Below, piece by piece: positions 18,101-63,743 of a stretch of 64,000 nucleotides of DNA (positions within the stretch are counted from its first letter, which is position 1; every line of letters begins with the position of its first letter). The notes under the pieces were generated by a model, which saw only the letters and a list, made by a program, of their open reading frames with translations, was not told the DNA's origin and searched no databases. This DNA comes from Macrocystis pyrifera (Eukaryota; Sar; Phaeophyceae; Laminariales; Laminariaceae). Location of the stretch: assembly GCA_031763025.1 (NCBI GenBank), contig JASSKH010000025.1, positions 3,472,001 through 3,536,000 of the forward strand, in the 5' to 3' direction. The position numbers and the translations under genes were made by a program.

Positions 18101-18536
18101 GGAATGTAGTGGACTTGCTGCTGGAGCTGTTCGAGTTCTACCGGACAATAATCCCTGGAGGAGAGAGCGCGCCGCTGATGGCTTACACGAGCGGCGGGAG
18201 TTGGAAGGTTTGGACGAGAGGGCAGGCGACGTACTGTCTAAGGAGCGGGCTGGAGAGGGTGGGTGAGAAATGGCGATCGCAAGGGACGGGGGCAGTGGCG
18301 GCGCTGATACCGGAGGAGTTCGCGCTGCGCTCGGGGAGGATAGGAGGAGCGACGGGGTTGGCGGAGATGGGTGCCCCGCCGTGGGTGATTCAGAGGGAGG
18401 GAAGGTGGGCTTCGCAGGCATTTACGGGATACGTGAGGTCGAATATGGAGGATCCCCTGTGGGTCTCCAGAGTGCTAGTGGGTAGGACGGGAGAGCCGAG
18501 CAGGCAACCGGGGCAGGGGACCAGATGGGGCGTATA

Positions 18537-18573
<37 letters not shown>

Positions 18574-22500: not shown

Positions 22501-25500
22501 GGGCTCCTCCATTCCCAGGAAGCGCTGTCTCATAAACACGGACTCTGAAGCCAATATGATTCGGGCCAAGTCCACAGGTCTTGCCCTCAAACAAGCGACA
22601 GCGCCTGGTCCCGATAGGCTCCGATGCCGAGCCTTGGCAAGATCTCTGGTTTGGATTCCTCCAACCACGTCGTTCGGACCCGACGGGCCTACTGCCTCAG
22701 TGACCTAGTCCAGAGAAGCAAAGCAGCGTCCCGCTGGTACCGGACCCGATTCACCGGCTGCCCCAGCTTGTGCTGTGCCTTGTGGGAGCTAATCGTTTGG
22801 GTGTTATGTGCCAGCAACATCTCCACATCAGACTGCCCTTAAGCTTTTCACCGTCGCCGCCAAGCTCCCGATGGACGCTGACATTCTTCTTGATTGAGCC
22901 GACGACAGTTCAACCCCTCGGTCCCCATGAAGAGGTTCGCCTGCGTATTCAGGTGGGGCTGTAGCGTCAACCGGTTCGCTCGATGGGCATCCGTCCTCGA
23001 GGAACGACGATTCATCTGCTGTCCCTGGAAGCTCCGGAAGGCACTCGAGCATCAATAGTGCGCAAGTGTCTGCCCGCTGACACGCGGGTAGTGACAGCTC
23101 TGGGTCCATTACCCGCTCAATGTAGGAGGTAAGCTACACCATCGAGCTGGTGATGAGGTTCGAAGACTGTTTTGCGGCATACGCGGAAGGATGCGCGTGA
23201 GTTGCTCTGGTCCCCCGTCTCGGATTATCTCCACAGCGCTGTTCACCGCGAACGCAGCGTTACCCATGGGCACGCCAATCACCTTTGCCCCACCCCGATT
23301 CGCAACGCGAACAATGATGCCCCCCAGAGGTGAAATATCTTCCTCCGGCGTAGGCACATGCCTTTTCGGAGGCAAAGCAACCGTCTTGCTGGGATTAATG
23401 ACAATGCCTATTTCGCACAGCTCGTGCTGGGGAAAGGGCACGTCATCAATATTTACATGGACATTCACCCCCTCCCCTCATGGCCCCGCGCCGGCGGATG
23501 CAGGATCTACAAACAGCAGTGCGTAGAGGATTAGGGGGTGCACAAGATATACAAAAAAGGGAGAAGCAACTCTCTTCTTGTACGATATACGGTTCGGCGT
23601 GTGGTGTGTGATATATATATATATAATCCTCTGGCGGATTGGTAAAAATAAATGATGATTGATGAGTGTCTCAATAATCTGACGTAATTGTCTGCTGTGA
23701 CGAACACATACGTGTTGGGTTACGTTGGGATGTTTGGTGTTCAGCCATGATCCACGGTGATGTGTCGGGGTGGTGGTGGAATGTTGGTGTCGGATTGTGA
23801 GGTTAATTTGTTGGGAGGGCCACAAGGGACACCTCCCCGGAAAAAAATTATGCGGTAGAGATACCCCCGAAGGAATATTCTCCAGGGATTACAGCACTCC
23901 AGGGTCGAGCCCAGTGCAAGAGCCTGCTCCCCCTGGGGTCACCAGTCATATTGACCACTGGCAAGCCCCCGCCAGGTAAGTATGCCTTGTTCCATCGGAC
24001 ATTTCCTGGAATATATACCTTTTAGGTCGTCGCCCGCGGTTTTCCATCGTATGAACACGCCAATATGTATCAGTAGATCTAAATACCTCTGATCCAGTGT
24101 CGATGACAACCCCAACACAAGTTGCCCCTTCGTATCGAGTGAGAGTGTGAGAGTCCCCGTATGATTCATGATGCGCTATTTATTTATGTGTTACGAAGAT
24201 GACGACGACAGACATCCGTGAAATCGACTACGGTAAATACTCGTATCATGGTGCGCCTATATACCCTTATGTACGAGTACTGCTTGTACGGTGATAAACG
24301 AAGTAAACAAGTATAAAAACGAGTATGCGTATTTCACGAGTATTATTGTGTTTGACTCTGCAATGCCCCAAGGCAGCTCGGTAGGTGGTCCGCGTGCCTA
24401 CAATTAACAAGATCAATTTCGTGGGTTCGAGTTTCACCGAGTGCTACTTGTACTCGTAGGGACTTTTTCTTGCATAAAAATTGACTATTAATAGCAGAAA
24501 GCGCGAGAGCGCGAGTTAGCAAGCGCGATAAAAATGAAGGCACGTACCGGGGGGGAAAGGGACGACAACCGTGACCACGGCTTGTCCAGAAGATCGCTGA
24601 GGGTAATGGTGGAAAGTAAAGTGATGAAAACAAAAAAAAAAAACGATCGCCAACTCCTTTGCCGATCGGTTCTCTCGTACAGCAGTAGTACGCTGGTGTA
24701 CTGCTGCTACTGCTCTATGTAGATTCGAGGGGGGGGGGGCTACTGTTATTACTATTAATACTACAGGAGCACTATACTCCGGAGATGGGGAGATCAGTCT
24801 ACAGCAGTTTCTATTGGCTCATCATTCGATCAAGAAAGCACAAAAAACAAGAAAAAAGGGTTATTTTTACCATTTATGTATGTTTCGCGCAGACCAAACT
24901 CCCGTTTGACAATTTATTTGATATATAAACCTGATCCTGACCACTGCCGTATAGTATCTCCGATCCTCTCGCATCACGAATTTTACCCTCGCCTTTTACT
25001 AGGATAAACCGTGCTGAGAGGATCCTGAAGGAGTTCTTTCGATTTTTGACCCCACTTGTGGGGTAAAGCGCTTCGCCGGCACACGACTCACTCACCAACA
25101 CACCCACAAATCAACAACCCACACAGCGACACATAATTCATCGCCTGCTGCTGTGCGGGATACGTGGACATACTGCAGCATACAGGGTACGAGATATATA
25201 TCAACACAATCAAGACCAGAAAATAAGAACAAGAGACAACGAAGCAAACAGGGGTAAATGCTGTGTGGGTTTCACACTAAATCGTCCTTTCTACCCAGCT
25301 TCATCAGGACACCCAGTGAGGTCCGTCCGGATTCTTTATCCTACTATTAGAGAGAGATACCAATTATGTCCTACTGCGAGACAGAGAAAGACAAAAAAAA
25401 TCGCGAATTAATGGATGAAGTAAGTGAAACACCAGCGTATCGGGTACGGGAACACAGCAATACAGGCAAAACCAGAAAATAAAACAAAAATACAACAAAA

Positions 25501-28500
25501 CACAAAGAAAGGCTGAAATGAAAAACAATACAAGCGGCGCATGGAGATCAGAAAAAGACAGCTGTTAATAAAAGGAAAAGCATACGTACTCAAGCAGGAC
25601 AGATAGCTGCTGCAAAGGACGAAAGCAACACGAAGGAGAGGAAAATACCAGCATATAAGGACGATGAGGAGGTGAAGGAAAAACAAAGGGAGAGAAGAGA
25701 AAGTCGAACTCCAGGCGGTGATAGTAACACGAATAGTCGAACCGATACCTACTCTAGCCACCCGACCTATCACATGTTGTTCTGCATTCGTCGACAGCTG
25801 TATCAGTACGGCTGCCCGCGCCTCCCCTTATTGCCGCTCTTGGCGTCCTCGGCTGCGTGTGGCGCTGCTGTACACCATACAATCAACAGCAGAAAAACTT
25901 CAAATCCAAGATACAGTAGAATATAATTATAACTCGTAACTCGTTCGCGAGTATTTCCCCTATATATACACACAAGAACGCACACACCACGTTTTACACC
26001 CGTAAAATACAACAGAAAGCACCTTCAAATTCCAGATGCATAATAATATATTTGCGTTTGCGGAAGGGTGTTCGGCGGCGGTGACGTGAGGTCGCGCGGG
26101 TGTGTGGTTTTGTTTGGAATTATGGTCTGGTGTTTGTCCCCGAGGGGACGGACCTCACAAGGCGGTAGTGGAATGCCGAGGAAATCCAGCCGGAACACTG
26201 CAAGCAGCGCTAAACCCGGCAGTTTCAAAAACAGGTGTGAAAATGACACTCGATGAGTGTCAATCAGTTTTCACACTGATTAGAACAGATACTACACATG
26301 ATCTTAGCCAAAAGGCCGAGAAGGTATGCTTGATAAGTTCTCGTGGTGTCACACATATATATTATGTAGGCTGTCAGCTGGACATATGGACTGCACCAAT
26401 CCGCCATTTTAATTCAGAAATATATGCGCCACCGGCCATTTGAATAAGCAAGCGATTCGATAGTTTCGGTCACACCTTTACCTTTTTACTACCTTCTGGA
26501 TCAGCTCCTGGGAGAATCTGCTGCCTCGCAACGATCTTTTCTGGACATGCCACACGGCCACAGGCAGGTGTCTCCCCCCCCCACACATCATTTTTTGCCT
26601 GTACTCGCCTTTATCTTTGTATGAAGTTACAACGATTATAAGTATAAAGCAGAAATATAACTGCACCACGTACTCGCATGTACTTGGTACAGAATACTGG
26701 CTGTGGCGTAAGACTATTATTAATAATACGAGACAGCAGGAGCCTCACTATACAGCAGTACTGCTGCTGTAGTATTAATATTAATTATTAATAGTATAGT
26801 TCGTACATACACTGACTGATACGGGTACGTACTATTAATACTTGTGAGTACGACCACATGCACACTTAGTGGTGGCACAGCGACTTGCTGCGTACTGGTA
26901 TACCTCTAGTAGGTTTAAGTGGTAGAGAGGTAAACGAGGCAAAAGGCTGTGTAGGTCGTCTAGGTTGGAAAACAAAAAACGGCGGATTCACAACACATAG
27001 CGGCAAAGCCACCAACGATTACAGCAGCACGGCGACCGCGGCCAGCTTGAGACGCTTCTGCAGACATCGTTTTTTTTTTTTAAATCGGCCAATTTATAAA
27101 ATCGGCCAAGTATATAGCTCCCACGATCGATGACGCAAAAAGACGACACGCAGCAGTATTGCCTACACACAAGCACAAATGCAAGAAGACGAGTTACATG
27201 CAAGTTTTTGAAAGCCTCGGTCGCTTCGCTCCCTTGGCTTCAAAATCCTCATCTTGATTTTTTTTTTTTTTTTTTTATGCTGGCGGATTGGTAAAAATAA
27301 AGCTTAAGCTCAAGCTCACCACACTCCCACGTTCCAATTTCGTGTCGTGTGTCAATTTAGCCCATAGCTCCCGTTGTGACATCAGAAGAGGCTGTTGTTA
27401 CCCCTGGAGTTTGGGCACGTTGACCCGACCTCACTCCCAAGAGGAGCAGGTGCGGTGGAAATAGCTACCCGGGAGAGTCATCTCTCCCGGGCAGTGTAGG
27501 ACTTGCGCTGGAAAGCCTCCGTCGCTTCGCTCCCTTGCCTTCAAAATCCTCATTTTGAAAGTTTTTTTTTTAGCCTCAATACTCGGGTATTCTCGGGGTA
27601 TGTACCGGTACCCGACACTCAGTAGGTACTTGAGTTACGACCTCCGATACTTACGGTAAGGAGCGCTTGAGTTCGTACAGGGGTGGTTGCGACCGTTGTT
27701 CAGCGCTCGGTTGTTCCAGGATGGGAAAAGGTCAAGGCTGCCAATACCGAAAAAGGCAAAAATTCGGAAAAATCTTCCCGAGAGCCTGCCCAAAATACAA
27801 CGTTCGACTCTACTGCTGCTGTAGCACCCTTACCGTTGTCGAGAAAACTATCAATACGTACGTGGCGCATAAAAACGGCAGCACCCCCTCCTGCGAAATC
27901 AACGCTCTTCACGGTACCCGAGGTTTATAACCCTTTTACGACCGCAGTCCCGTTTTGGAGACAAACAACTTGTAATTAGGGTAGTTTGCCCCCAAAACGG
28001 GACAGCAGTCCTAAAAGGATTAACGAACTTTAGGTACGACGTCCGATACTTGCCTACTACCTGGAAAGATTTAGGTACGTTCAGCACATAGATACAGGCA
28101 CGGCGCTCAAAAAGTTACACCCAGGCATAGGTACACAGTACGCGACGAGGATCTGCTGTGATTTGTTGGCCAAGGCTCGCGGCTTACTGTGAGGCCAACG
28201 TTGAGCATAGACTCTTAAAAGGCGGTTGCCTAGGATTCAGAGTGGCGTTCCTCGTTGAGCACGAATCCTCACCAGGCATTCACTAGCTGTTAACTCTTAC
28301 GTTGTAACTGCCAAGTGTTTCACACATGTCGCACCTTACTTACCCAAGATGACATTGGAACACGTGGCAAAACACCCCCACATCTACAGTAAATATGACT
28401 CTAATGCGACAATTTTGTCCCCGAAACGTGAGTTTAGTCCTAAAGGGGTTAGCCGGAGCCCTCGATGGCCCACCTTAGAAAAGGAGGGGAAGGTGTAGTC

Positions 28501-31500
28501 GCGCATGTCCTCGCTGTAAGGAATTTTCTGAAAGAGGAAGCGGTGCTTTGTTGCGGGGCCGGTGGGGTCTGGGAGTAGGATGCCCAGCCACGGTTCGGCG
28601 GCCTTTCTCCTGACGAAGCGAACGACGGCGATCTGGGGGTGGGGGTTGCGTACAAGAGCATTATCAACAAAAAAAATAGTATCAACAACAAAATGATAAA
28701 ATTCATAAGGGGGTTTACATTTTTTGTCTAGTTTCGTCCAGTATTCATGTCTGATTGGTAATATCTACGACGTCATTGGATTCTGGATTCCCTTTTGTAT
28801 GTGGATGGTTTAATTGGAACAAAAGCTGTACGTTGTCCGATGGGAAATATAGTAATTGCACTAATACTGCTCTTGTGGTTCCCGTAGGTTTCTTGTTGCA
28901 GAGCGCTTATATATGAGTGATCAACGTTGAACCTCATGCTACACATTGTGGGATGGCAATAATAATAACAACGACGACAACAACAGCAACAACAGCAACA
29001 ACAACAATAACAATAATAACAAAATAATAATAATAACAATAATAATAATAATAATAATGGCAACAATAATAACGACAACACGCCTACATATTGATGACGA
29101 ATCAATGCCGAAAATCGGACAAAATATACACAGCGACAAACACAGTTACCAATAATTCAACGCCGTCACTCACCAACACCCCTCACACCACAACACCAGC
29201 CACCATAAACACCACACCACTACGTGCGTATCACCAACACACCAACACCAGCCCCCTGAAAACAGACACAAGAAAAAGGTGGACAGCGACGCCACACCCA
29301 CACCCACGTGTGGTGGTATTGCCTTGGGACAGGGCACTGCCACCTTATACAGGGGTAGCGGCATATTATTTTTCTGAGCTCCTTACACGAGGAGCTCAAT
29401 CCTCCATCCAAAACATGACTTCCAAGGCGTTTCTCCGTGCAACCCCAGCAGTTCTATGCGCTACGAAGTCATGATACATTAACCAGGAATACTACAGAAG
29501 TAAAAGGATCATACAGTAGTACGTAGCCGGTACATAGTTGCTCGCTTGTGGACCTCAACCGGTCAAAAAAAATACCGGGTGAAAAAGTGGTGTCGCTACC
29601 GTGCAATGCCTTAAAATATACCGGAAACTTACCACAGTCTAGGCATTGGGTGCGTATTTGTATTACTTGGCAGGCGTACCGCGGATGAGAAACTCAGGGG
29701 TTCAGGGCGAGGATCATCCTAGCCCTGTTGGTTTAGTCTCCTTCGTGCTGGCCGAATCGTGGAACGCAGCTGTTCTTCTTCTACAGTATGATGCCAGGTA
29801 TCGCATAAGAAGCCGCCGATCTATGCGCACGTCGCTCCACCCACCAGAGCGTGGAACACGACACAGGCTAAGGTGGCTCCACCCTTCGACGCAAATTTCG
29901 GCGCCAAACCACTTGGAATTACTCGTAGGAGTATTTTTTCGGTTTCAAACTGTTTGAAGTAGGAGAAGGGGATCATGTTTGCAGCAGTAAAACACCGGTT
30001 GTCGCAGAGACGCCAAGCCGTCACGCTCTGTCCGCACCGTGCAGAGCCGCAACAAACCACAATAAAAAAACAGCACCGGCCAAGAAAAAAAAAATAATAC
30101 CTGGTCCAAGTTGGTTTGGGTTCCAAACTACTTGAAAATAGAGAGGGGTCATGTTGGCAGCGGTGAACACTAGTGTTGGACATCGTATCAAAAAAATCGA
30201 TGTATCGAAATGTCGGACTTTCGATACATCGTACGTATCGAACGCGGTTTGCCTCCCACCGCCTGGCATCCCCCGTGTTTTTTATGCAGATACTGGATGA
30301 TATCTTCGGTGTATCAAATATCGGTTTCTTATCGAATACGATTGTTTGTGTTAATCTGTATCTCTATCGTGTCGAACCGGATTCCGATATCGACATACTC
30401 GTAGCAACAACGTGAAAACCAGTTGTCGCAGAGAGATGCCACGCTATCACCCTCTGCTCGCACCGTATATACGCACCAAACTACAACACAAAGCAGCCGC
30501 GACAAACAAAAAAAACTGAAAGTACCTGGTCTAAGTTGCGCATGGCCCGCGCAAGGCTGGTGATCGCTCCCAAAGCCTGCTTGCTCCCGGCTCTGGCAGC
30601 AGCACAAAAGTGTCGTCCATGTACAGATGCCTGGCGATCGTGGACGAGGGGACGAATCCCAGTATTTTGATGGAGGGCGGTTCCGCCGGTAGCTTGAGCG
30701 AGTCTTCGTCGACCGCGTTCACCGGGATGTAGTCCTGCGCAGTTTTTGGGTAGCACCAGACAAATCAGATAGATCAGAGTGATCCCCATCTTGCATGATC
30801 TAGATACTTCGGGGCTTATACGTTCCTGATTTACATTTATGAGCCGCAATATTTTGACGTTTTTGATGGAGGGAGGTTCCGTCGCTACTACGGTAGTAGC
30901 TTGAGGGGGTCGGTGTCGACCGTGTTCACTGGGATGTACTCCTGCGTTGTTTGGATGGAGTCGGACAATTCAGATAGATCACATGGATCCTTACTGCATG
31001 ATCTACAGATGTTTCGGGGGCAGATACATTCCTGGGTGTTGTATTTATGAGCTCCAATACTTGGATTTATTTTCCGAATTCGGGCAGACGAAATCGTGGT
31101 CTGTCTGGTGTGTGCAACCACCCCAGGCGCGGGCAACACGCCAAGAGGCGTGTATTAATACGCCACAGGCCACAGGCTGATTTTTCTCAGGCTTTTCGCG
31201 GCAGAAACTCTACGCTTCATACCCGAAACCCGGTTGTGAGGGAAAAAAAAAACGGTTTCGTGCAACCGAACGAGCAAAAATCCCAATACTGCTGGAATAA
31301 AAACAAACAACAAAGGAAGAAAAAACAACTACGAAGTACGAGTAGCAGTAACCTCAAGAGTGCCAAGTGGGATTGGAAATATACTGGAGGGCGTTCCTTA
31401 GTCAGAAGTAAAGCTTTCGAATACAAGTGTGACTTACAGCAATATTTATATAATACCTGGTACAAAACAAGAGCACGTGACGAGAAGGAAGGAGCAACGA

Positions 31501-34500
31501 TAGCAATAGATAGAGTAGATGGAGCTCGAGCCGGAAGTAGGTACATATAGGAGTTAGACTTTGTGCAGAGGGCTCTTTTTCCCCCCATGGTTTTCTTCTT
31601 TCGGAGTGCTTATGAGTAATTAGATATCGGAGCTCATGCTACATACTGTCGGATGGCAACAAAAACAATAACACGAACGGGAGTGGACATATACTGGGAC
31701 GGTGCCTTAGTCAGAAAAACACACATAGAATACAAACCGGTTCGGAAATATACTGAGGCCGTTCCTTGGTCAGAAATAAAACTTCAGCACACAAAGGTTC
31801 GGAAATATACTGGGGCAGTCCCTCGGCCAGGACTAAAGCTTGAGAACACACACACGTATACATACTAGTAATGGGATTGGAAATTTATTGGGCCAATATT
31901 GGCCAGCCCTTACCGCAGTAAGAAATAAAATTTTACGGTAGATACGAACCAGAAATGGGATTGCCAATAAATGGGGGAAATTTCCTTTTGGTCAAAAACA
32001 AAACTGCAGAATACAAGTGAGATTTGCAGTACATCGGGGGGGGGGTTCCTTAGTTGAGGAGCCCCTCCCCTGACAGGCAGAACATGCTGGGGTCCAAAAA
32101 GTTACAGCGTACCCCCTCTATACACCCCTCTACGGTGGCATGGCACTTCAATCCTTCTACAAAACTGCACTGTACAGAAGCGTAACTCTGATTGTGATTC
32201 CATGTTTTTTTTTCCCCACACATTGGGAGTGCAGTCCTCAGGGAGTTCATCCGTTTCGCACCTGGCCATAGCGGTAGCCCTTGACCTGGTTCTCAAAGTC
32301 GACTTCCACCTCAGGCATTTCTGCTCTCGCCAAAAAGAAACGACAGGGGAGAGCGTCAAAACGCGCGCACACACACATGCGCATGGATACTCCAATCTAG
32401 ATGCCGCCCTGGTCCGAATTGTAAGGATCGATGGGGTGTAAATTTGAACATCAGACGTTCCTTACATTTCCGTCCAGATTGGTAGGTGCCAGGTGAGTGG
32501 AAAACATTACTAGCCAAGTCGTAAACATTATTGGACAAGTCGTAAACAATGCTGGACAAGTCGTGACCAATACTGGACTAAGTCGTACACACTATTGGAC
32601 AAGTCGTACCTGTAAACAGTACTGGGCAAGTCATGAACATTACTGGTCAAGTCGCAACCATTGCTGGACAAGTCATCAACATAGCTGGATAAGTCGTAAC
32701 CATTACTGGACAAGTCGTAAACACTGCTGGATGAGGCATAAACGTTGCCAGATACTGGACAAGTGGAATACATTACTGGACAACTCGTGAACACTGCTGG
32801 ACAAGTCATGAACATTGCTGGTCAAGTCGCAAGCACTACTGCACAAGTAATAACCTTTACTGGATAAGTCGTAACCAATACCAGCCGTGAACAATACTGG
32901 ACAAGGCATAAACATACTGGACGAGTTACATAACCATTCCTGGACAAGTCGAAACCACTACCGGACAAGATAAAAACAGTATACGGAACAAGTCATAACC
33001 ATTACTGGGAAAGTCATCACCAATACTGGACAAGGTCGAATGAATATGTACCTACACATTACTGGACAAGTCGCAAACATTGCCAAACAAGTCGCAAGAC
33101 GCATGCTAGCGGTAGATGTAGATGGATGCACCCGCAATTCCCGAGATTTTTCTGGGGTTTCTACTCGAGAGCTCTATATCCTCATTTTTCTTAGAAGCTC
33201 GTGAGGCTTCTCACTTAAGGAGCTCTATATCTCGCCCAAAACCGGCTTTACGAAAAAATATGCTCACAGAATTAACCCAATGAGCAATCCCACGGCCTAC
33301 CTGGTAGTCTGCAAAGGAAACGATTGTTAAAAGCAAACGATATTCCCGGTGACATAATAGTGACATTGGGTAGTTTCTCAGTTGAGAAGCCCCATCAGTC
33401 AGAAAAATTGCCTCATGAGGCAAAAAGAGTGATATCCTCACCCCTCTCGTAGAACGTGCCGGTTTTGTATCCGGACAAAGTCGTAACCATTACTGGACAA
33501 ATCGTAAACATTACTGGACAAGCCGCAACCAGTACTGGACAATTCGCAATAATTGCTGGACATGCAGGGGTGTACGTGAACAAAAAACGACACCTCACTA
33601 CCCGGTATACCCATTTTCGCGACCGTATACTAAAATCAAGTCAACAAAATCATTCATAATAAACAAACTGATTTTGAAAATTCGTCAAGAAATCCCACAG
33701 CAAAAGCGCTGATTCTTTAATTATTTTGACGATTTTAGGAGTGTCATGTTTTCGTTGTAACAATTACTGGACAAAATAAACCAAGGACACCGGACAAAGG
33801 GGGGCGCTTCAGGCTTTTCATCGATACCTGGGTCTCTGTAAGTCTTGTCGACCCTAACTTTCCCGTCGCCAGAGCCGCGGTGGTCAGCAGCGGCTTCGTA
33901 TGACGCGATTGATTCCTTCTTGAGGGACTCCTTGAGCCCTGTGTCGGTCTTCTTGAAAAACCTGTCCTCGAGGGCGAAAAGGAGATTGATGCACAGACAC
34001 AACGCGAAGCGGTAGCACAGGAAAACATACTGTTGTAGTACTATAAAAATAGTAGTATGATAATACTACAGCAACAGTATACTTGTATATGTATACGTAT
34101 ATTTGGCAAATTTTCGTACTTTTGCCAACTTTTCTCTTCGCACGAGCACTTTTGGGCAAAACGGCAATATATTGTTACATTTGTGCGACCCTTCGCTGTT
34201 TTTCCTTTGTTTTCCGGTTTTGTTCACGTTTGTTATATTTCTAGCACTCCCTTGGTCCGTCTGTCTCTGTCTTTTTTGCGTCGCTTGTTTGCAATGTGTC
34301 ATCCTTGATCCACCAGCTGCATATACAGGACTGCTCGTTTTTTGTTTGCTGTCAGCTCTTTGTCTCTACCCTCTTCGCGTATTTTTGCCATTTTCATCTC
34401 ATATCATAGGACTGATCGTACCAGCAAACAGCAATCTTGTCCTCGGGACTCGGCCTGCGCCCTGAGCGCATGTTTGCTTCGTTTATTCTACGTTTTCCTT

Positions 34501-37500
34501 TCTTCTTTTGGTCCCCTCTTCGTGTTGTTGTTTACTACGTATTAATATTATTTTTTCTTGTTCTTCGAGTGCACACATAGATAAGTTCCTGGTGTTACTT
34601 GGTGATACGGGATTGTATACCACAACTCGTTTGTACCGTTTCCTTTGCGGACTCCTGGGATGATACTGCCGTGCGCACTATTTCGTACTCGTATGTTTTC
34701 TCTCACCGAGATGCTTTATTCTTGAAGCCTGTTTGGTGACCACAGGCAGAATTTCAGGGAAGTGTGAACACTAATGTGAAAACATCGTCATAATCATTTA
34801 GCATAAACAAAAACAGAAAGAAGAGAGAAAAGGCTTGGCGGGAAATATTTTAGAAGGGTGGGATCTAAATCAGCACGAACAAGAACTAACTGGAGGATAG
34901 ATCGTGAAGAAATACTATTCTCGACAGCAATTCCAGGCTGAGCTTGGGTTAAAAGTGCGTGTGAGAGGTGAGAGCGCAGGCGAGATCAAAGTATAGGGAA
35001 GTGCGGAGGTTGTTCGTGTGCCTGGTTGTTGTTGATGTACCGTGCTACTACCGTAGTGATGGGGCTACCGCGCGTTCTACTAATACTAGTACTTTTTTTT
35101 TGTGTTTGTTTGGCACCGTTCCTCAGGCTCGCCAACAGAGTCGCTCTCTCTCGAAAAAGAAAGCGCAGGTCATCGAAACAGATCAAGTAGGCATAAAGCC
35201 GCACTCGAGTCTGAAAACCATCGCTGCTCTGTCAACTTGTGCATCCTCATCGGAATCGGTGGGTTTGCCTTGTTTTGGATAAACAAAGCGGAGACTGACC
35301 TATAGAAATGATTCTTTTGAGTACAGTCATACCCCTGTACGTACAGGTTTCTGCGCTATGTATAGTCGTCATTTGAAAAGCTCAGGTTTTAATCAGCGCA
35401 AAACGGTACAAATTTGCCGTATGAATGTGATGCGTTCCTAATCGCTTTGAACCAAAAAGTACAACCCCTGCCGCCGTGGGATGAGCCGCAATCACTATCA
35501 TTGATAATGGTACTGCTGTAGTTTGAGTATACGAGTAAAACGAATACGTGGAGTTATTATACGTACCTACAGAGCGTCACTTCCGCTCAATTGTATCTTT
35601 ACAGTATTAATAGTACGATTGGTAACTTTACTGCTGTCTACGAGTACAAGTGTTCAGCGCGAAGCTACTCGTAGAAGCACCGGTAGCTCGATTTCGCTTT
35701 CACGACGCACAAAAAAAAAAAAACGGTCCTGGCAAATGAAAATCTTACCGGTACAATTTTGCTACTTCGTGCAGCAGTACGTATATAGTATGCATCCTAC
35801 GTGTACCTGGTATTTCTTTTACGCAGGACTACGAAGCGCATACTGGTAGAATTTGTTCGTCGGAATGCGCGAACAATTTTCTCCAAAAAAACAAGGCACC
35901 ACACCCCTAAAATTGTTCTTGCCTCCTTCCCTCCCCGCTAGGAGAACGCGTGGGGGGAGAAGGGAAAGCCGGGGATTAGGGACGTTGTGTTGGGAGGAGA
36001 GCTGTTTTTCCAGAATTCCCAGATCTAGTATTAATACGCGTAGTAGACTTTTTTTCTCGCTTTTTTTTTTTGGTCTTCCAGATGTTCCTGATATATTTTT
36101 CCAAATAAGCGAAATTTAACCTTCTTGATTTTTTTTCCGTCTGCTAAATCTCACAAAGTATGACAGAACGCCTCCGTATCTTGATATATTTTTTTCACAA
36201 AATCTGGGAACTCCGGAAAAAAAAAACTCTCCGATAAAAACGCTGCTTACTACCGCTTCTTGCAAGCCTCTGTTTTTGTCGCAGGGTGTTGAATGACGCC
36301 TAAATAAAATAAGTCGCGTTTCGCCAAAGACTTTACCACTCTGGCCGATAATATAGTCACCATTTGGAATCTGATGTGGTATCGAACGTAGTTTATATTA
36401 CCGGCCAGAGGGGTATGTAGGAGGCCGGTCTTTTTGGGCGCGCCAAGACCTCTTTTGGTATCATTGTATTACTGTAGTTTTAATGTAAGGGTGGTCAGTC
36501 AAGGCCACCCTACCATACTAAACCGCTACAACAGATGCCTCCTCGCGTATACAATCTCAACGTCGACGTACATTCCATTGCCCTTCATACATGTCGCGCA
36601 ACACGGCGCCGCAAAGACAGCGCAGAAAAGGCCTTGTACGCATCAAACGGTACCTTACGAGACAACACGCCACACCACACCAACACCACATACCTGCAGT
36701 GCAAGGCCAGCTTTGTTCCCACAAGCAGATCGACCTTCGACTGGAAAGGGTGGAAAGCAATGGGGGCGAAGCCATACGATGGACTCAGTGTTTGATGACT
36801 ACTCATTCAACCGATTAATCAGTCGACGAATCAGTCAATGAACTACTGTGGTTAAGCATGCAAACAATCAATCAATCAGTCCATCGGTCAAGCGATCAGG
36901 CAATCAATCAATCAATCAGCCAATCAAACGAGTAACCAACAAACCAATAAAATAATCAATCCATTAACCAATCCCTCAACAAACACACGAATCAACCAAT
37001 CCATCAATCGGTCAACAAAGCAACATATACCAATACCGGTACATGAACAAATTAATAGATCAAACCAACCAACAAACCAATCAACCAATGACTTAATGAA
37101 TCAATCAACCAAACAACCAACTATTACGTAAATAGGACCTACGGTACACACGAAACCTATATATTTCCCTATTTTTACTAACAATATTGGGTCCTATTTA
37201 CTATGGTCCCCCGTAATAATCGCTCAATCACCTTATCAATCAATCCATCTATCCAGAAGATATCAATAGTGAACCAGCCCATCACGGTCCCGTCCACCAG
37301 CGAGGTCACAAGCGCACGCTGATGGAGCATTCAAAACAAACGGAAGCGAGGTCCTCGGTACATCTATCGTCAAGACCCCCCCGGGATGCGAGGGTCTATG
37401 GTCATATGACTACGGCCATGCACGATAATGAGTACGCCCCCCCCCCCCCCCTCAACACAAGAGCACACCCTCGACTCACCAGCACGGGATTAGTGGTCTT

Positions 37501-38558
37501 GATAGTCGACTCTCCCATCACATCCACCAGAGTAGAAGCAGGGACAACGGTCCCGCTCGTGGCGGCCGCAACGCTCGCCAGCATCTTCTCATTCTGCTCC
37601 TTCACCACGCTTGCCCCCCCCCTCCCCCGCATCACCGCTGCCACCCTGACCAGAGAGAGAGAGAGAGGGTGCGACAAAGCGATGGAGGCGGAAGTGATAT
37701 ATTTAGACTGTATAGCATATCCCACAGCATCTTGCTTGCCATTTATCACCTCTATCGTAGCCTGAGTTGTGGGAAACATAGGTTCAGCCATCAAAAGAGG
37801 CGAACGCGGGGGGGGGGGGGGGGGGGGGGGGGGGACTGGGGAGGGGAACGGGGGGTGGGGTGAGGGGAGGGTGTGTAAGGGAGAGGTGGTGGTAGCGGAT
37901 GGGTTTGGGCGAAAGTTTTTTTCCTAGGAGGAGGGGTGGGGTGGTGGGGTTGGAGAGAAGTTGAGGCTTGGTTGGCGGGGGGGGGGGGGGGGGGGGGGGG
38001 GGTGTACTCATTATCATGCATGGCTGTAGTAATATGGCCATAGATTCTTGCGTTTCTACAATGCCGAGACGGAGCACGTCGGGTTTCACCGACCAGACAT
38101 TGCTCGCACCAAGTGCGAAGCACCGTGACGTTTTGGGCGAGTCGCATGAAGGGTGAGCTGCATCCTACTAACAACCGCTATTGAGGCGGGTTTTCTTGCA
38201 TACGGATGACAGCGTCAATTGGTTGATTGATTTGCTGGTGTGGTCACTCCCAGAGACCGCAATGGCTGTGTAGCTGCCTCGTGGTTTCCTTACCTGGTAC
38301 GCACTATTAATACGTGATACGACAATCCGACTTGTGCAGAGTTAAGCTTCTTTCCGCACAAAAAATATCTAAATTCGACCGCCAGCCGACCGCCAGCGGT
38401 GGTGATCGCCAAAAAAACTAAAAAAAAAAAAACGGCACCCTGGTTGTATAGCTCACGCAGTGAGAGGCGTGTTTTACTGCGTCGTCGCCAACCGACGTCA
38501 ACCAAATATATATGCCGGGTATATAATACAGAATGGGGTGAGGGGGCGGGGGGGGGGG

Positions 38559-38602
<44 letters not shown>

Positions 38603-41600
38603 GGGCGTACTCATTTGTTGCTTGCCTTAGTCATTTGACCATTGACCACGCATCCCTTTCGAGACGGAGGGTACTCATGTGTTGCTTGCCTTAGTCATTT
38701 GACCATTGACGTGGGGGGGGGTACTCATTATCATGCATGGCCGTAGTCGTATGACCATAGACTCTCGCATCCCTACAATGCCGGGACGGAGCGCGTCGGG
38801 TTTTCACCAACCAGGCAGACATTGCTTGCACCAAGCGCGAAGCGCCGTGAGGTGTTGGGCAAGTCGCATGAAGGGTGAGCTACATCCTACTAAGAACCGC
38901 TTTAGAGGCAGATTTTCTTGCATATGGATGACAGCATCAATGAATTGATTTAATTTCTGGTGTGGCCACTTCCAGAGACAGCAATAGGTTTACTATGTAA
39001 CTGCCTCGTGGGTGCCTCACCATATACACACTACGTGATACGATCATCCCCCCTGCGCGGAGTAAAGGTTCTCCCCGCACGAAAATGATCTAACTTGACC
39101 GCCAGCCGTGGTAACCGCCAAAAAAAAAAAAAACGGTACCCTGACTGTCTAGTTCACGCAGTGAGAGGCGTGTTTTACAACGTCGTCGCCAACCGACGTC
39201 AACCCAACCTATACATACCGGGTATATAATATAGGATGGGGTGGTGAGGGGGGGGGGGGGTACTCATGTTTTGCTTGCCTTAGTCATTTGACCGTTGACG
39301 TGGGGGGGGGGGGGTATATGCTTCGAAGGGTGATCCGTCGTAGAGCATTTCGTGACAGGCTTGCCGGCTGTTTCCCTGAAAATAATGACAGACGATGCGG
39401 CAGCTGCCCTCTGCACCTACGGTTTTCGCGGCGAAAACTACTTTGTATTACTTGCGGGTACCTTGATACCTGGTATAAAGCTTTTGCGGTATATGCCTCG
39501 TATATAGTATGTACGAGGGTTTTGAAAAAAAGTTGAAAATAAAACATATTAAGAATGTATATATATCCCACCTCTGCGCCCGCTTCTTGCTTAACGGCGG
39601 GGCGAGAAAACGCCTCCACACCCAAGCCGACGAAGTGCAGCTTGCACTCCATGGAGGCGTCGGCGTACATATTGACGATGTCACCGAGCTGCGAGGCCCC
39701 CTCTACCGGCGTGGCGGCGTCCGTGAGGAGATACACGTGCCGGGCGTACTTTCTGCGTGAAAACGGCGGGGAAAAAATAAATAAATGGGGACGGTGCACT
39801 TACGCAACGGACAGATCACATCGATATATCCCCATTTCACGATCTAGACATTTCGGGGCAGCCGTCATGATCTTGATCTCTCGGGGCAGCAGTCATGACC
39901 TAAATATTTCGGGGCAGCAGTTGTGACCCTAGATCTTTCGGAGCAGCAGCCACGACCTAGATATTTGGGGGCAGCAGTCATGATCTACGGTAGATCTTTA
40001 GGGAGAAGTCATGACCTGGCATCTCGGGGCAGCACTCATGACCTAGATCTTTCGGCGCAGCAGTCATGATCTAGATCTGTCGGGGCAGCAGTCAAGACCT
40101 ATATCTCTCTGGGGCAGTCACGATCTACAGTACCTAGATCTTTAGGGGCAGTCACTATCTGATCTCTCGGCGCAGCAGTCATGATCTAGATATTTCGGGA
40201 GCAGTTAAGACCTAGATCTCTTGGGGCAGCAGTCATGACCCACATCTTTCAGGGCAGCGGTCATGACCTAGATAATTTCGCGGCGGTCATGACCTACCAG
40301 GTACTTGTTTCGGGACATTCGTCGTGACCTAGATATTTCGGGACACCAGTCGTGACCTGGATCTTTCGGGCAACAGGTATGATCTAGCTCTTTCGGGAGA
40401 GACATATTCCCGGTGGCGGCGTCCGTCAGGAGGCAGGAGAATGACACACGTCCCGAGCGTAATCTCTACAGCACACATGCGTATCGAGCAACGGCGAACT
40501 GCGGGGATAAACAAACAAAAACAAAATGGCAATCATGTGCAACACGTCCGAGACATCAGGTCTCCATTTCATGTATGTACCAGGTAGATAGTTCGGGGGC
40601 AAACACGTGCCGGCAGAAGTTGACTAGCTGCAGCATGTCTCTCGGGGAAGATAGGTGCCTGCCAGGTGGGATAGGTAGGGGCAACGCTTGTTCTTTGCGG
40701 ACTGTTTTTCCGGAAAAGGGGAATTTGTACGAAACGGCTCTGTTGCACAAACATCTCGTCGACGTCTGCGAGACGTATTTATCGCAGATAGACAAGACAA
40801 AACGTGACACGAGCACAGGTAACACGGCCGTTCAGTATCGTCACCAAACTGAGGCAATGCTCTGTCCTACGTAGCAAACGCCAAGCCCAGTGCAAAAAAG
40901 GGGGCGCTGAATTCGCTTTACAATTCTCGATCGAGTTGTGTGAGGCACAACACGATACCAAGGGGGAGTTTCCTAACCCTCGTGTTGATGGTACATGATT
41001 GACAGCTCGGGCATGTTGCACATGCATGTTACCTCGTGAATGTATACCTGGTACCTGCTATCAAATACCGGTACGAAACAACACATACCAGGCATACTAT
41101 TGCTGTAGAAGACATAAATACACAAAAGGAGCAGCAACATCTACGCGCCGCGACCTCTCGCTCCTTCCACGCCCCGCCGCCCTTTGGAGGGTGTCGCCAC
41201 CGGCCCTCTCCTCGTAAGCGGTTGCCTTTTGTTTCGCGGCTGCCTTCATTTTTCACGCCCATGACCCATGCGAAGCTTTTTAATTTCTTGCGTTTCATCC
41301 CCATAGATTTTGCGACATCGCCGCAACGTAATGAAAGAAGCAGGGTTTGTTTTGCTAGGTGCTACACAACCCAACCAACATGGGGGTCAGCTACTTGTAC
41401 GTATGACATGTCACGAAATGGACGTTCGCCTGCATTACTTAGAAATCCCCTCCAATAGCCAGTTCTTCGGAGATTTCACCTCAGTTTTTTTTTTTTGCCA
41501 ATATAAACGAAGAGCTGACCATCACGTTGGCGACTTAGGCTTGAAGACGTGCCTGGAGTTTCAGTTGAAGGTTCACGTGCGATCTCCTGCGTTATGCGCT

Positions 41601-44600
41601 TGAATACTACAGAGTTTTATACACTGAAAAAATCAAGTAATTCCACGGTGGGTGGAGGCGTCGGCTTTTGGGGGGGGATGCTCTCTTTTTTTTTGCTGGT
41701 CGATGTCGATATTTTTCCGTGGTCGATACGCACGAAAGCGCAGGGCTAACTGCAGGTATGCTAGCACCCCGAACGTAGTGGCAGTGCATGCACTAATATA
41801 TAACCCCATTGACAGCAAACACAACACCAATAAAAAAGGGGGCGCTAAAAATTCCTTCTGGCTCTCCTAGTAGCTCTAACGCATTGTACTGTAGCTGGCA
41901 CCCCGAACGCCTCCGAAGGCACTGCATGCACTACTATTACGAGGGTCCATAGTTAATAGGACCTATGGTATACATAAACACCTGTATATTTCACTATTTT
42001 TACTAACAATATTTGGTCCTATTTACTATGGTCCCCCGTAATAATGGCCTAGCAAACGGCGCACATGTACATGCGAAAAAGAGAGGGGGGCGCTCACTTG
42101 TTGACGGTCCTCGATCCGATCGCGTAGCAGCCCGACCAGTAATACTAAAGAGGCGCTCACGAATGTGCAACCCAGCCTGACTATTACGGGGGACCGTAGT
42201 AAATAGGACCAAATATTGTTAGAAAAAACAGGTGAGTATATAGGTTTTTATGAATACCATAGGTCCTATAAACTATGGACCCCCGTAATACTATTCTACG
42301 AAAAAACTAAAGGAGCTCAGCTCACTTTTTGATGGTCCTCGACCGGATCATGTGCAGCCCGACCACCATTGCGTCCAACAAATCACCCTTGCCCTCAGCA
42401 TTCTCCGAGTCCGGAACATCGATACCTTCCACCTTGCGGAGAATGTCCACGCCGCCCTTATCGAGCCTGCGCGCAGTACAGAAAAACCGTCGCAAGCACA
42501 AGAAAAAACATATAATGTGTCTGGGTCATCCCTCAACAGGAGATAAACGAGAAGGCGGCCCTCGCACACAGCCTCCCAGCATAGCATGTCACGGGGAGCG
42601 GGGCAGATACATTCAGGAGGCATGTCGGGGGGGGGGGGGGGACGGGAGCATCGATGCCTTCCACCTCGCGGAGAAGGTGAACACAACCCATGTCGAGCCT
42701 GCACAGCGGACAAAAAAAGCCGTTCCAAGCACCAACAAAAGCCGCTCAAATGAACGTTGCGTTGATAGGAGATAGCCGAGCAGTCGGCCGGCGCAAAAAC
42801 GCCTCAACAGCAGTACGGCACGGGGCGGGGCAAACGTGTCACGTTTCAGAGGGGACACGCGCTACGATAAAGGCTGCAGCACATTGCTTGGTGGCCAAAA
42901 ACCAAATACCAGGTACGACTGACGGGGCGGAACCCCACCAATGCGTTGAGCCTTTCGGGGCAAACTGCAGTCCCGATTAGGGGACAAACCAGTCAAAGAT
43001 TCTAGGTAGTTTGAGTCCCCAAAACGGGACCGCAGCACTAAAAGGGTTGACCATTTTTTGTTGGTTCAAATGTATTCCTTGCACAGCAGTGGTCCCTCGA
43101 TAGCGCCCCGCTAGAGCAGCGCCGGCGGCCCGCTATAGAGCCGGCAAAATCGCTTGGCAGTTTGCACAGATGGCATTAACCAGTGTGGTAGTGAGCTATT
43201 ACGGGGGTCCACAGTTAATAGGACCTGTGGTATACATTAAAAAAAACCATGTATTTACCTATTTTTACTCGCAATATTTGGTCATAATTACTATGGTCCC
43301 CCGTAATACTATGGCCCCTCGTCCTAGGTCTGTTTTTTGTGAGTTTTTGGGTGAAGGTAGACAGCTCTTCAAGTTGCTGCTGTTCTTGCGTTAACTCATC
43401 GCCACAAAGCAGTCCGTGAGTCACCGGACAGGCTCCAATAACTCTGGAGCGGAATAGTATATCAGGAGGAAGGAAAAACAAAAAAACGGGAGAATAAGAT
43501 ACTCACAGCAGTACGTACACCAATTGGACTCTGAAATGAATATCAAACGTTAGATGGTATTCTCGGTCAGAGCGGTACTGCTGTACCTACCTACAGTAAT
43601 ACCTACTGTAAGGCAAATATATACAAAAAAAAGTGAGATCAAGCATACGTGCGTATCAGATTCGCATGATACGCTGCCGTACGAGTCGCGAACGAAACCG
43701 AGGAGACAGCAAGCGAGGAGCCTCAGAGAGTTTACGTAGGATGCAGTCCGATATACCGTAACGTAGAATGCGGGTGGGGGCAGAGAAAAACCAGCCGACA
43801 CCCAATGGCAAAAAAATGTACCGTGGTAAGTCGTTTCTGACCCACATACTGCAGGGCCAATACGGTAGCCCGAGCAAGGCATAGCGCATGATTTGAGGCG
43901 GAGTTCAAGGTGCCCCACCATCGACAGAGCCGCTCTCACCTGTAAGCCGCGCACGGAGAGTTTTTGTTTCGTTACTATAACTGCTGGGTGCGTGCTGGGT
44001 ATCTGGGCCAAGTAATTCTAGAGTGCTGTTTCGTAGGGTACATGTATACTCTGCGGTGCCCGAGTACCGTGCCAAGTATCTGATCCCAAGTATTTCTAGA
44101 GTGTGTTTCGTAGGGTACATATATACTCTGTGGTGCCCGGGTACCATACCTGGTGGTTTGGGTCATACTCGGGTGAGTACCTGGGTATATACTTCCTGAG
44201 TAAATATGGTACCAGTTACTAAATGAGCAAACACGTCCTTGAGTATTTCTTCTCGACTGACCGTCGACTTAGTTCCCGACGGTTTCGAAAACCGGCAAAA
44301 CCCGCCGCATCAGGAAACGGACACGTTCTAAGCTGAACCCACGATACATGATAGACAGGCTATACACGAGCAGCGCACCGCTCAGACGCAGTGACTGACC
44401 GCAAGAACGCTCGAAAAGGCAAACACAAACCACAGCACTACGAAGGGTATTTGTTCAAGTAACTCTAAACACAGACATCACAAGCAAACACACAAATTCA
44501 AGTCAATCAAAAAGAGAAACCCCGACAAGGGCCGAATTTCAAGTCGAGCCGCCACGAAAAGACAACATAAAAATAACGATTACAATTCAAGTCACCAGGA

Positions 44601-45591
44601 AAGGCAGCAGACACACGGACAAAACTTTCAAGTCACTTGAGTCCGAAAAAGGCCAAACAAAAACCCAACAAGGATCAAATTTGGAATCAATACTGCAAAA
44701 CAAATCCTACACTAAATCCAAGTAATCCTTTCCAAAAGCTTGGGAGTGCGGTTCTAAAAGGGTGACAAAACAAAACGAGGCTCACATTCTAACTCACCTC
44801 CAGCGCTACAACAGAAACAAGCATCAAAATCGACAAAATCACTCGGCTCAGAACGGCGAAACAAAAAACACACACACGGATCAAGTATCAAGTCTCCGGC
44901 ATCATCCGTACACAAACAAGCGCTAAATCCTCCTCCTCCTCACATGCACAGCTCTTTGACCCCCAGGTAGTCCCCCTCGTCCTTGTCGTTCAGCTTGTTG
45001 GAGGTTTCTAGCTCTGGGAGGCCGAACAGTACCACCCCCAGCTCGTGCTGCAAGTATCATATCGTCAAAATATGAAACGGGTGAAAACCGCCAAACGTCA
45101 GGAATCACGCCGACCAGGAGCGTTGGAGGAAAATAAAACTAACGTCAGTTGGCGGTCTAGTTTTGTTCTTGATCCGTCAAGGCATCCTTTAGTCTTAACA
45201 TGATACCTTTAGTATAGGGATTTCCTTGACGGCTGTCCGTCTAGGTTTGACCCGTCAAGTAATTTTAGACTTGATATATGAGTACGCACTACAGCAGTAG
45301 TTTAAATGCAGATATTTTCTTGACGGCTGTCCGTCTAGGTTTGACCCGTCAAGGCATTTTTAGACTTAGTGCACTACTTTTAAGTGTCGGGATCTCCTTG
45401 ACGGCTGTCCTTGACGGCTGTCCTGCTCATCAAGGGTCAAGAGTGCCGTCAAATAACGTACGGAGTACCTTGACGGCTGTCCGCCATGACGAACGAAAGA
45501 GTTGCCGTCACCGAAATTCTTTCACTCCAGAGTCACTCGAGCCTTGCTTGTGACGACGGACTATACGTCTAATGATTTAATGTGAGAACAA

Positions 45592-45626
<35 letters not shown>

Positions 45627-48600
45627 ACAACACCTATAGGGGGTGCGCCGCAGCTTGCGCCCTTGCTTACCTGCTTGCTCTGGAGCATTTTCTGGACCAT
45701 CAGTACCCGGATCGCCTTCCTCGTGAGCTCCATGTGACGGGCCATGCTCCCTGAAGCAAAAAAAAAGCAACGTGTTCGTAACAACAGGAAAACGGTGACA
45801 AGTTGCACCCCGAAAGTACGTGACACGGAGGGCAGTACTGTACTGTTATATATCAGGTAGTAAGGGCGTGTCTTAACTCCCCCCAAGGAGCATGATATAT
45901 ATACATATTTTCCCGTTTTTATAGAAGAACCGACCTCGAGCCACACACATCTAGGTCACTACTTCGAGGTGGGGCATACTAATCAGCACTCACGATGGAC
46001 TCAAAAGTCACATATCCTCCTTTGTTCATAAACGCTACCAGGTATGTGCTTCTGACTACTGTGTTCGGCAGGAATAGCAGATGAGGGGATACTCCAATAC
46101 GTCCCATGGGGTACAGCATTCCACACTGACCATGACTACACCGTGATGGTGTTATTTTTTTCGCAACTCTTTCACTACGGCACTGCTGCTGTACACACTA
46201 TTACGGGGGGGTATAGTTAATAGGACCTATGGTATACATGAAAATCTATACATTTACCCATTTTTTACTAACAATATTTAGTCCTATTTACTATGGACCC
46301 CCGTAATAAACCAAAACCTGACCCTACAGATAATTTAAGTGTTTAGTCCGACCCGTGCTACGCAAGAGGTAAACGCTACAGTAATTGGCGAAAACAGATC
46401 TGGCTGGCAGGGCGCCTTAACCCCTTTGTGGGGACAAAGCACTTGGAATTAGAGCACACTTCAGGTATCTCTACAGCAGTGCAGCACTAAAGGGACTACC
46501 CAAAGTAGTTGAAATCCAGTCATGTTCCCCACAATTATTTCTTGTATTTCACCCAGGCCGTGGGGTTCTTCATCTCGATTTTCAAGTGTCGGCAGTTTTT
46601 TTTGGTGAGGCAGAGGGTTCCTATACTACAATCAAGTGAAGAGCCTCGAGAAAAATAAATGGAGCTACAGCAGCAGTGCCGGTCCCTCTATAGTGCCGGT
46701 ATTATATGCGCCAGCCGACAAAAACCGGCACTACAGCGTTAACCGGCACTGCTACCGCACACTGCCACACGACAACTTAATCCTATGTGTACCAAGCGAT
46801 TTCACCGGCACTACTTGTATAGGGCAACCGGCACGATAACGGCGACCGGCACTTCTACCGCGCACTGCCACACCGGTTGATCCCCTCTGAGCCACGCGAC
46901 TTCACCGGCACTATTTAGGGCAACCGGCACTATTACTACTCAACCGGCACTATATAGGGCAACCGGCACTATTAATACTCAACCGGCCCTATATAGGGAA
47001 ACCGGCACTATTAGCACTCAACCGGCACTATATAGGGACCACTACTGTACCCTTATCGTAGCACGCGTCGTCTCCACAACGGGAGTGCAGTCCTCAAGAG
47101 GTTAACCCTTATAGCGCAAACTGTAGAGCAGTCCCGTTTGGGGGACAAACTACTTGGAATGTGAATGGTTTATCCCCAAAAACGGGACTGCTCTACAGCT
47201 TGCCGTAAAAGGGTTAAGGCCGCGGTTCGGACTGTTTTCCTCCCGTCCCTTCCTTTTTCGTCATCGAGGAGACAGAAAGAGTAGGGTTGTTTCGGCCCAA
47301 TCCTCGCATTATTTTAATCTTGGGGGCAAGACCTATGCCAATGGAAACGCAAAGTTTCCATTAAACGTTTGAATTCCTTAAGGTACCCGTCAGAATTTTT
47401 CAGGGACAGTTTGATATGAGCACGATTCTTCGAACGGAATGTTCCAAATTTTTTTCTTGGAAAACCCCGAAAAAAAAAAAAATCCGGGGCCCATGTTGGG
47501 CTAAGATCGGCCTTCAGAAAAACTCAGGCGGATATTTAGTTCGAAGTGGCGAGATTCCGAGTTCTCGACATACATCGATCCTCAAAACCAACGAATACGT
47601 CATGAATTCTGAACGGAGTGCGCTCGTTAGGGGCTCCGACCCACCCTAGGGTCACCGTGTTCACAATGGCCGGTCAAATGTGGCGGGAGTTGGCCAGGCG
47701 TGTGATAAAAAACAATTGGCCGGTGGTGTGCACAAAACAGATAAAAAAAATATCGATCCGTCTCGAATGGCAAAACATAGTTTTTTTTTTTTTTCAGGTT
47801 TGGGAGGATACCGTAGGACGCCGCCGGCAAGCTCTCGCCCCCTAGACCATGGATCCACCTGCTATATTCGAAGGCCGTCATCTATACTCGTTGGCCTTGC
47901 CCGACATCAAGCGGGTTGGCCGAGGGCTGAGTCTATGTCGAGATCGAGCGTCTATCGTCGCACGAGCTGATTTTTATCAGCGTGTTGGCAGTTTGCAAAG
48001 AAAAAACAAATGGCGCCGCCTGCAGCCGTTGGGGAAAAAAAAAAAAAAAAAAACATACATGATTTCCCTTTTTTCCCACAGCGGCGGCACGAGGATAATT
48101 TCGGCTGTTCTTTGAAAGCAATCTCTTTGAAATAAATCTTCTTGACTTCGCGTTCCCATTGGCATAAGTCTAAGATACGCAAAAAGAATTTTCTTGCTTT
48201 CGGCAAGAAAGGTTGGTGGTTTAGAATTTCCTCAAGAAGAAAATATGTCGTCAAGGGGTGACAAGGGTCACAACACGGGACCTTCTACCCCATGCGGCGT
48301 CTGAGAGGGAGATGTTCTCTCCACCTGCCATGAAAAACCGAAAACATGTAGATATCGGAGGACACCAAACGCCAAGGCAATTCGAAACGGCCTAAGATCA
48401 CATATGGCTTGCCTACAAGCCATGCTTGCCTACAAGGCCACACCAGCACGTGACCGAAACCCGCGAGATAGAGAACCTCCCTATGATATGGTGCGTGAGA
48501 GTACTACCCCCCCAAAACGTCCGTGGTCGGTACGAGTAGGCAGAAACGGTAGAATCACTGTGGTTGTGTGTGGTGGTTACGGTTTTAGGAGGCGAAAAAT

Positions 48601-63610: not shown

Positions 63611-63743
<133 letters not shown>

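Follow-up and report, generated by a model that had tools for sequence, protein, structure and literature searches.

Partial copies of Ku80 exons in adjacent introns of Macrocystis pyrifera as probable remnants of local tandem duplication

Close direct repeats of eukaryote genomes are characterised by direct orientation and short spacing, and the same two features are found in the sequence pairs described here at a Ku80 locus of Macrocystis pyrifera, some of which overlap exon boundaries. Our literature search found no paper for close direct repeats as a term. Two related phenomena have been described. Small tandem duplications are a recognised class of mutation, formed at DNA breaks according to PMC8355091. 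PMC9013439 treats intronic sequence that resembles an exon of its own gene; it reports that, at an identity of at least 80%, such sequence concerns ~2% of human exonic nucleotides, 0.08% of those of the fly and 0.06% of those of the worm, and counts 4,027 intronic targets in human that coincide with neither annotated exons nor repeats.

The Ku80 gene and its partial exon copies

The window, a 64-kb stretch of DNA, carries a eukaryotic Ku80 gene on its minus strand; a search for it on the plus strand found nothing. A peptide joined from six exons, with an X at an apparent frameshift, matched nine PDB sequences, all of them Ku80/XRCC5 (best E 5.4e-19), and contained the Pfam Ku domain (1.7e-20). 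The strong match falls in the core, for the most part within exons 10 and 11, while the N-terminal part gave a weak alignment. From translations and splice sites we recognised by eye nine exons, numbered as in an earlier, sequence-only reading: 2, 3, 4, 5, 6, 8, 9, 10 and 11. Exons 1 and 7 and any beyond 11 were not located in this way, and a candidate for exon 7 at 35.2 kb was rejected as it overlaps a match to U3 snoRNA. Exon 4 (42326..42466, minus strand, 141 nt) lies within the joined peptide matching the Ku80 chains, and its frame is in phase with exon 3, as judged by eye, and continues into exon 5 (39572..39752, minus strand, 181 nt), which was placed by its frame and splice sites. Exon 10 (30526..30734, minus strand, 209 nt) was placed by the Ku core match and its translation. 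Phase across exons other than 4 and 5 was read by eye only. Exon 10 shows an apparent 1-nt frameshift at about 30600-30580. We dropped the idea that a Ku80 gene killed by this frameshift had led, through error-prone repair, to many duplications, because exons 4 and 5 are in phase and the missing base may be an assembly error.

We aligned each exon with 40-nt flanks locally against the 2 kb on either side, giving 18 comparisons, and scored each with 100 dinucleotide-shuffled versions of those 2 kb as the reference. Diverged copies of parts of three of the nine recognised exons, 4, 5 and 10, lie in the adjacent introns. The sequence-only reading had proposed a 5' copy on one side of exon 4 and a 3' copy on the other, a 5' copy upstream of exon 10 and a 3'-boundary copy downstream of it, and a 5' copy upstream of exon 5, each keeping a splice acceptor or donor. 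Self-alignment recovered them all, over more than 15 bp in each of the five cases, with z-scores of 23.1 and 14.0 for the upstream and downstream copies of exon 4, 10.7 for the upstream copy of exon 5, and 30.0 and 7.3 for the upstream and downstream copies of exon 10; an AG or GT is present in all five. For every copy the observed score exceeded the largest score among its shuffles.

The remaining 13 comparisons reached z values of at most 4.2. A downstream match of exon 5 (39592-39546 with 37737-37699, z 4.2) is marginal and is not claimed after 18 comparisons, nor is the best nearby match of exon 3 (approximately 44945..45062, z 2.9-3.5). No copy was found by these alignments for exon 2 (approximately 45671..45749, translated by eye), exon 6 (approximately 37478..37620), exon 8 (approximately 33775..33935), exon 9 (approximately 32265..32330) or exon 11 (approximately 28474..28632), all on the minus strand; for exon 8, a match at z 3.3 is a 21-bp minisatellite motif.

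The five copies share a simple geometry. All are direct in orientation, with start-to-start spacing of up to ~740 nt, and in every case a copy of the 5' part lies upstream of the intact exon and a copy of the 3' part downstream. No copy spans a whole exon, and each has one splice site, none having both. Below, copies lie on the minus strand, directions are those of the gene and identities are computed without gap positions.

The upstream copy of exon 10 (30861..31072, partner 30665-30864) comprises the end of the intron, the acceptor and the first 70 nt of the exon, and is identical at 60/70 exonic and 98/125 intronic positions. Its arms abut with a 4-nt overlap, defining a unit of ~200 bp with one end in the intron and the other at exon base 70. 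At the duplication breakpoints, 10 of 13 bases appear alike by eye between the intron start and the exon breakpoint, a suggestive similarity in a single case. The downstream copy (29974..30113, partner 30538-30394) contains the last 13 nt of the exon, the donor and the start of the intron; it lies ~425 nt away and, with 12/13 exonic and 95/122 intronic identities, is mainly duplicated intron.

For exon 4, the upstream copy (42645..42854, partner 42413-42633) consists of the intron end, the acceptor and the first 54 nt of the exon, with identities of 43/54 in the exonic and 115/143 in the intronic part; its arms are 11 nt apart, with a poly-C run at the junction. The downstream copy (42087..42138, partner 42312-42365) holds the last 40 nt of the exon and the donor, with 34/40 exonic and 10/11 intronic identities and a core of 85% over 47 nt in self-BLAST. 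Between this copy and the exon, self-BLAST places a short dispersed repeat (42182..42293; MITE-like is our own label), with related copies at 41932-42043, 43196-43316 and 46197-46309.

The upstream copy of exon 5 (40410..40558, partner 39818-39706) includes the intron end, the acceptor and the exon start, and matches at 40/45 exonic and 51/63 intronic positions with several indels. It is absent from the self-BLAST rows at E 1e-3 and rests on the exon-centred alignments. A 28-bp minisatellite array (39837..40399) lies between it and the exon and makes up most of the ~740-nt spacing.

Origin of the copies

We consider the copies to be, very probably, remnants of separate local tandem duplications, each with a breakpoint in an exon and a second one in the intron next to it. 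The events would have involved units of roughly 50-220 bp, with the exon breakpoint falling where it did by chance. A head-to-tail duplication of this kind would keep the original exon intact and thus be tolerated; where the 5' part of an exon was copied, an extra piece carrying an acceptor would appear upstream, and where the 3' part was copied, one carrying a donor would appear downstream. The extra piece would then decay, presumably in a neutral manner. The two clearest pairs, the upstream ones of exons 10 and 4, are head-to-tail or nearly so, with units of ~200-220 bp and one breakpoint within the exon; the other three pairs lie apart but may also have begun as tandem units, two of them being pushed apart later, by the minisatellite at exon 5 and by the short dispersed repeat at exon 4. 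The placement of all five copies follows from this, as 5' upstream and 3' downstream is the only outcome of a tandem duplication with one exon breakpoint. At the unit and exon lengths used, random placement makes 59-98% of the overlaps with exons partial, and a whole-exon copy is possible for only one of the five; the absence of whole-exon copies therefore needs no special cause. The sequence-only reading had suggested a common mechanism, either replication slippage or repair of nearby breaks. The part concerning local duplication is upheld by the direct orientation, short distances, tandem geometry in all five and abutting or nearly abutting arms in two, while slippage and break repair are not separable here: the molecular step could be slippage or the fill-in and joining of staggered breaks.

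Templated insertion during break repair, in which short copies of nearby sequence enter introns without a tandem intermediate, is an unlikely source. Many local pairs have gaps between their arms (56 pairs, not all independent), as this process would give, but its products are expected on either side of an exon, and all five copies are on the side that a tandem event requires, an outcome with a chance of 1 in 32 by coin toss if independence is assumed. That one pair abuts and another nearly does also speaks against it and agrees with tandem duplication.

Summed over the five copies, 189/222 positions are identical in the exonic parts and 369/464 in the intronic parts. The differences, 33/222 and 95/464, are thus fewer in the exonic parts, though not significantly so (p 0.09); this is the direction expected with one constrained exonic copy. 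We do not infer a burst of duplication from the similar divergence of the pairs, which may reflect a detection limit. By codon position, differences number 13/75, 4/73 and 16/74 at first, second and third positions. They are unevenly distributed (p 0.02), with second positions low in comparison with the other two (p 0.005, a comparison picked post hoc), while a model of free decay in the copy, beside an exon varying at third positions only, is not rejected (p 0.11). The low number of differences at second positions is compatible with some coding constraint on the copies in the past. The copied acceptors lie at 42698 (exon 4), 40465 (exon 5) and 30941 (exon 10), and the copied donors at 42098 (exon 4) and 30101 (exon 10). 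All five meet stop codons, reading on from the acceptors or through to the donors, and for the donor copy of exon 10 stops are found whether the frame is taken from the start or from the end of the exon.

The sequence-only reading had also offered abortive exon duplication, which we take to mean that a full extra exon arose and one half of it was then lost. Alternative exons are known to arise by tandem duplication of exons, as PMC9013439 describes, each copy keeps one splice site, and the few second-position differences (4/73) could mean a coding past. We nevertheless find this origin a poor fit and improbable: all five copies fall short of a whole exon and lack one of its splice sites, there are stops in their frames, and at the junction of the abutting exon 10 pair the duplicated unit terminates within the exon, so that the whole exon was not part of it.

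Partial tandem duplication also accounts for one splice site in each copy, and we see no firm evidence that these sites are used. That they were kept as decoys or poison sites regulating Ku80 messages is very unlikely. The AG or GT survives in five of five, and use of any of them would bring stops, but at the identity of the exonic parts five dinucleotides are kept by chance with a probability of ~0.20, so that selection need not be assumed, and stops are equally expected from reading intron.

Local duplication in the surrounding DNA

We computed a background from 220-bp windows tiled over 20-64 kb with the same scoring and 25 first-order Markov resamplings each, leaving out 27 masked windows and those touching exons. 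Of the 336 unmasked non-exonic windows, 101 had a direct copy at z>7 no more than 2 kb away. With the 13 windows overlapping the exon copies removed, the background is 89/323 against 3/9 exons (Fisher p 0.71), and the comparison changes little with the threshold: 110/323 windows against 3/9 exons at z>5 (p 1.0), 75/323 against 2/9 at z>10 (p 1.0) and 55/323 against 2/9 at z>15 (p 0.66). Within the gene region, 33 of 98 windows have a local direct copy. When the 117 windows that contain dispersed or inverted repeats are excluded as well, the background becomes 37/206 (p 0.37 against 3/9 exons), and in the gene region 14/71 (p 0.39). The rate of local direct copies at exons is thus statistically indistinguishable from that of non-exonic DNA, in a sample of nine exons with low power; a two- or threefold enrichment of exons is compatible with these nine, and the point estimate, 3/9 against 37/206, leans that way. 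The earlier description of the copies as not an ordinary pattern is not supported within the region, where non-exonic windows have local direct copies about as often (89/323, or 37/206 after the stricter filtering).

Counted in bases, 230/1257 exonic nt are duplicated in the gene region against 3874/14765 non-exonic nt, figures that come from different alignment sets, and 7674/40066 non-exonic nt across 20-64 kb. Local duplication is dense here and covers between roughly one fifth and one quarter of the non-exonic bases left unmasked. At a distance of 8-10 kb, direct copies were found for only 15 of 323 windows, in a less sensitive run that was pre-filtered by score and used 15 shuffles, where the near comparison used 25; the effect is therefore local. 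Nearby inverted copies are also common (53/323 windows), which speaks against a purely tandem account; mobile elements therefore probably contribute to the background, the excess of direct over inverted copies being less than twofold. Hairpin-like repeats were seen in self-BLAST.

A mobile element carrying exon fragments, or a process directed at exons, is a very unlikely source: short dispersed repeats flank the exon 4 downstream copy on both sides and the minisatellite motif beside exon 5 recurs in the exon 10 unit, but within the window (BLAST, E 1e-5) the nine exons have no bases copied more than 3 kb away or in inverted orientation, four of the five copy intervals likewise lack a distant or inverted copy, the fifth having 9 such bases, and exons are not significantly enriched.

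Comparison with described systems

An eye-catching, repeated exon pattern can thus arise from general duplication, with tandem geometry alone setting which half of an exon appears on which side. Since one of its two sides is conserved, a duplicate that overlaps an exon should also stay recognisable longer than others. How densely local duplications occur across the region may merit a second look. It is conceivable, though doubtful, that local tandem duplications arise and persist in this genome unusually often, with a sizeable share of exon boundaries having partial duplicates whose surviving splice sites act as decoys or provide material from which new exons can form. If the rate is truly high, this genome would be well suited to research on the ways in which partial copies of exons provide or disrupt splice sites.

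A literature search combining Ku80, alga, intron and exon duplication found no paper, which cannot show that the locus is unreported. Tandemly duplicated and mutually exclusive exons have in common with the Ku80 locus the presence of exonic sequence in an adjacent intron; unlike them, the Ku80 copies are incomplete, with one splice site each and stops in frame. The small tandem duplications of PMC8355091 are reported to follow induced breaks in cells, whereas at the Ku80 locus only old, diverged products are seen. In comparison with the intronic exon homologs of human, fly and worm presented in PMC9013439, the Ku80 copies likewise are intronic and derive from the same gene, but they are partial and have one splice site each; the 230/1257 exonic nucleotides counted here are not comparable with the percentages given there, as they come from one gene picked for its copies and from another method. 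We file the Ku80 copies as a new example of these known phenomena, the intronic exon homologs and small tandem duplications.

Tandem repeats and exon 10 of the Ku80 gene

The unit of the minisatellite that lies between exon 5 of the DNA-repair gene Ku80 (minus strand) and the partial copy upstream of that exon gave 9 matches at ≤3 mismatches, compared with 0 expected. The unit is found at 39838-40345 and, once, at 30794-30816, within the intron portion of the exon 10 duplication. Another minisatellite in the same gene, with a 21-bp unit, is located between exons 8 and 9 and occupies 32496-33098 and 33473-33562.

Translation of exon 10 itself (30526-30734, 209 nt) revealed a one-base frame shift around 30580-30600 and, because of this shift, a straight reading of the exon runs into a stop. 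The shift is either a real lesion or an assembly error.

RNA genes and G-rich runs

Between the recognised Ku80 exons 6 and 8, and on the same strand as the gene, we identified a match to the U3 snoRNA (35118-35330). Rfam further placed six spliceosomal RNA genes in the window, four of U1 and one each of U5 and U2, at 7457-7630, 8508-8680, 20180-20353, 23811-23983, 24956-25064 and 26143-26327; the U1 genes starting at 20180 and 23811 are located within 256 bp showing 96% identity to one another in self-BLAST.

G-rich runs of 26-130 nt were detected with TRF at 37808-37834, 37977-38002, 38542-38601 and 63613-63742, some of them opening a repeated element in which GTACTCATTTGTTGCTTGCC or a similar sequence comes next.

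Reading frames resembling reverse transcriptase and tyrosine recombinase

Judged by eye, ORFs at 10250-12182 and 17818-18537 resemble reverse transcriptases or, in one case, a tyrosine recombinase. The region at 12-20 kb, GC-rich and strongly skewed, adjoins these ORFs.
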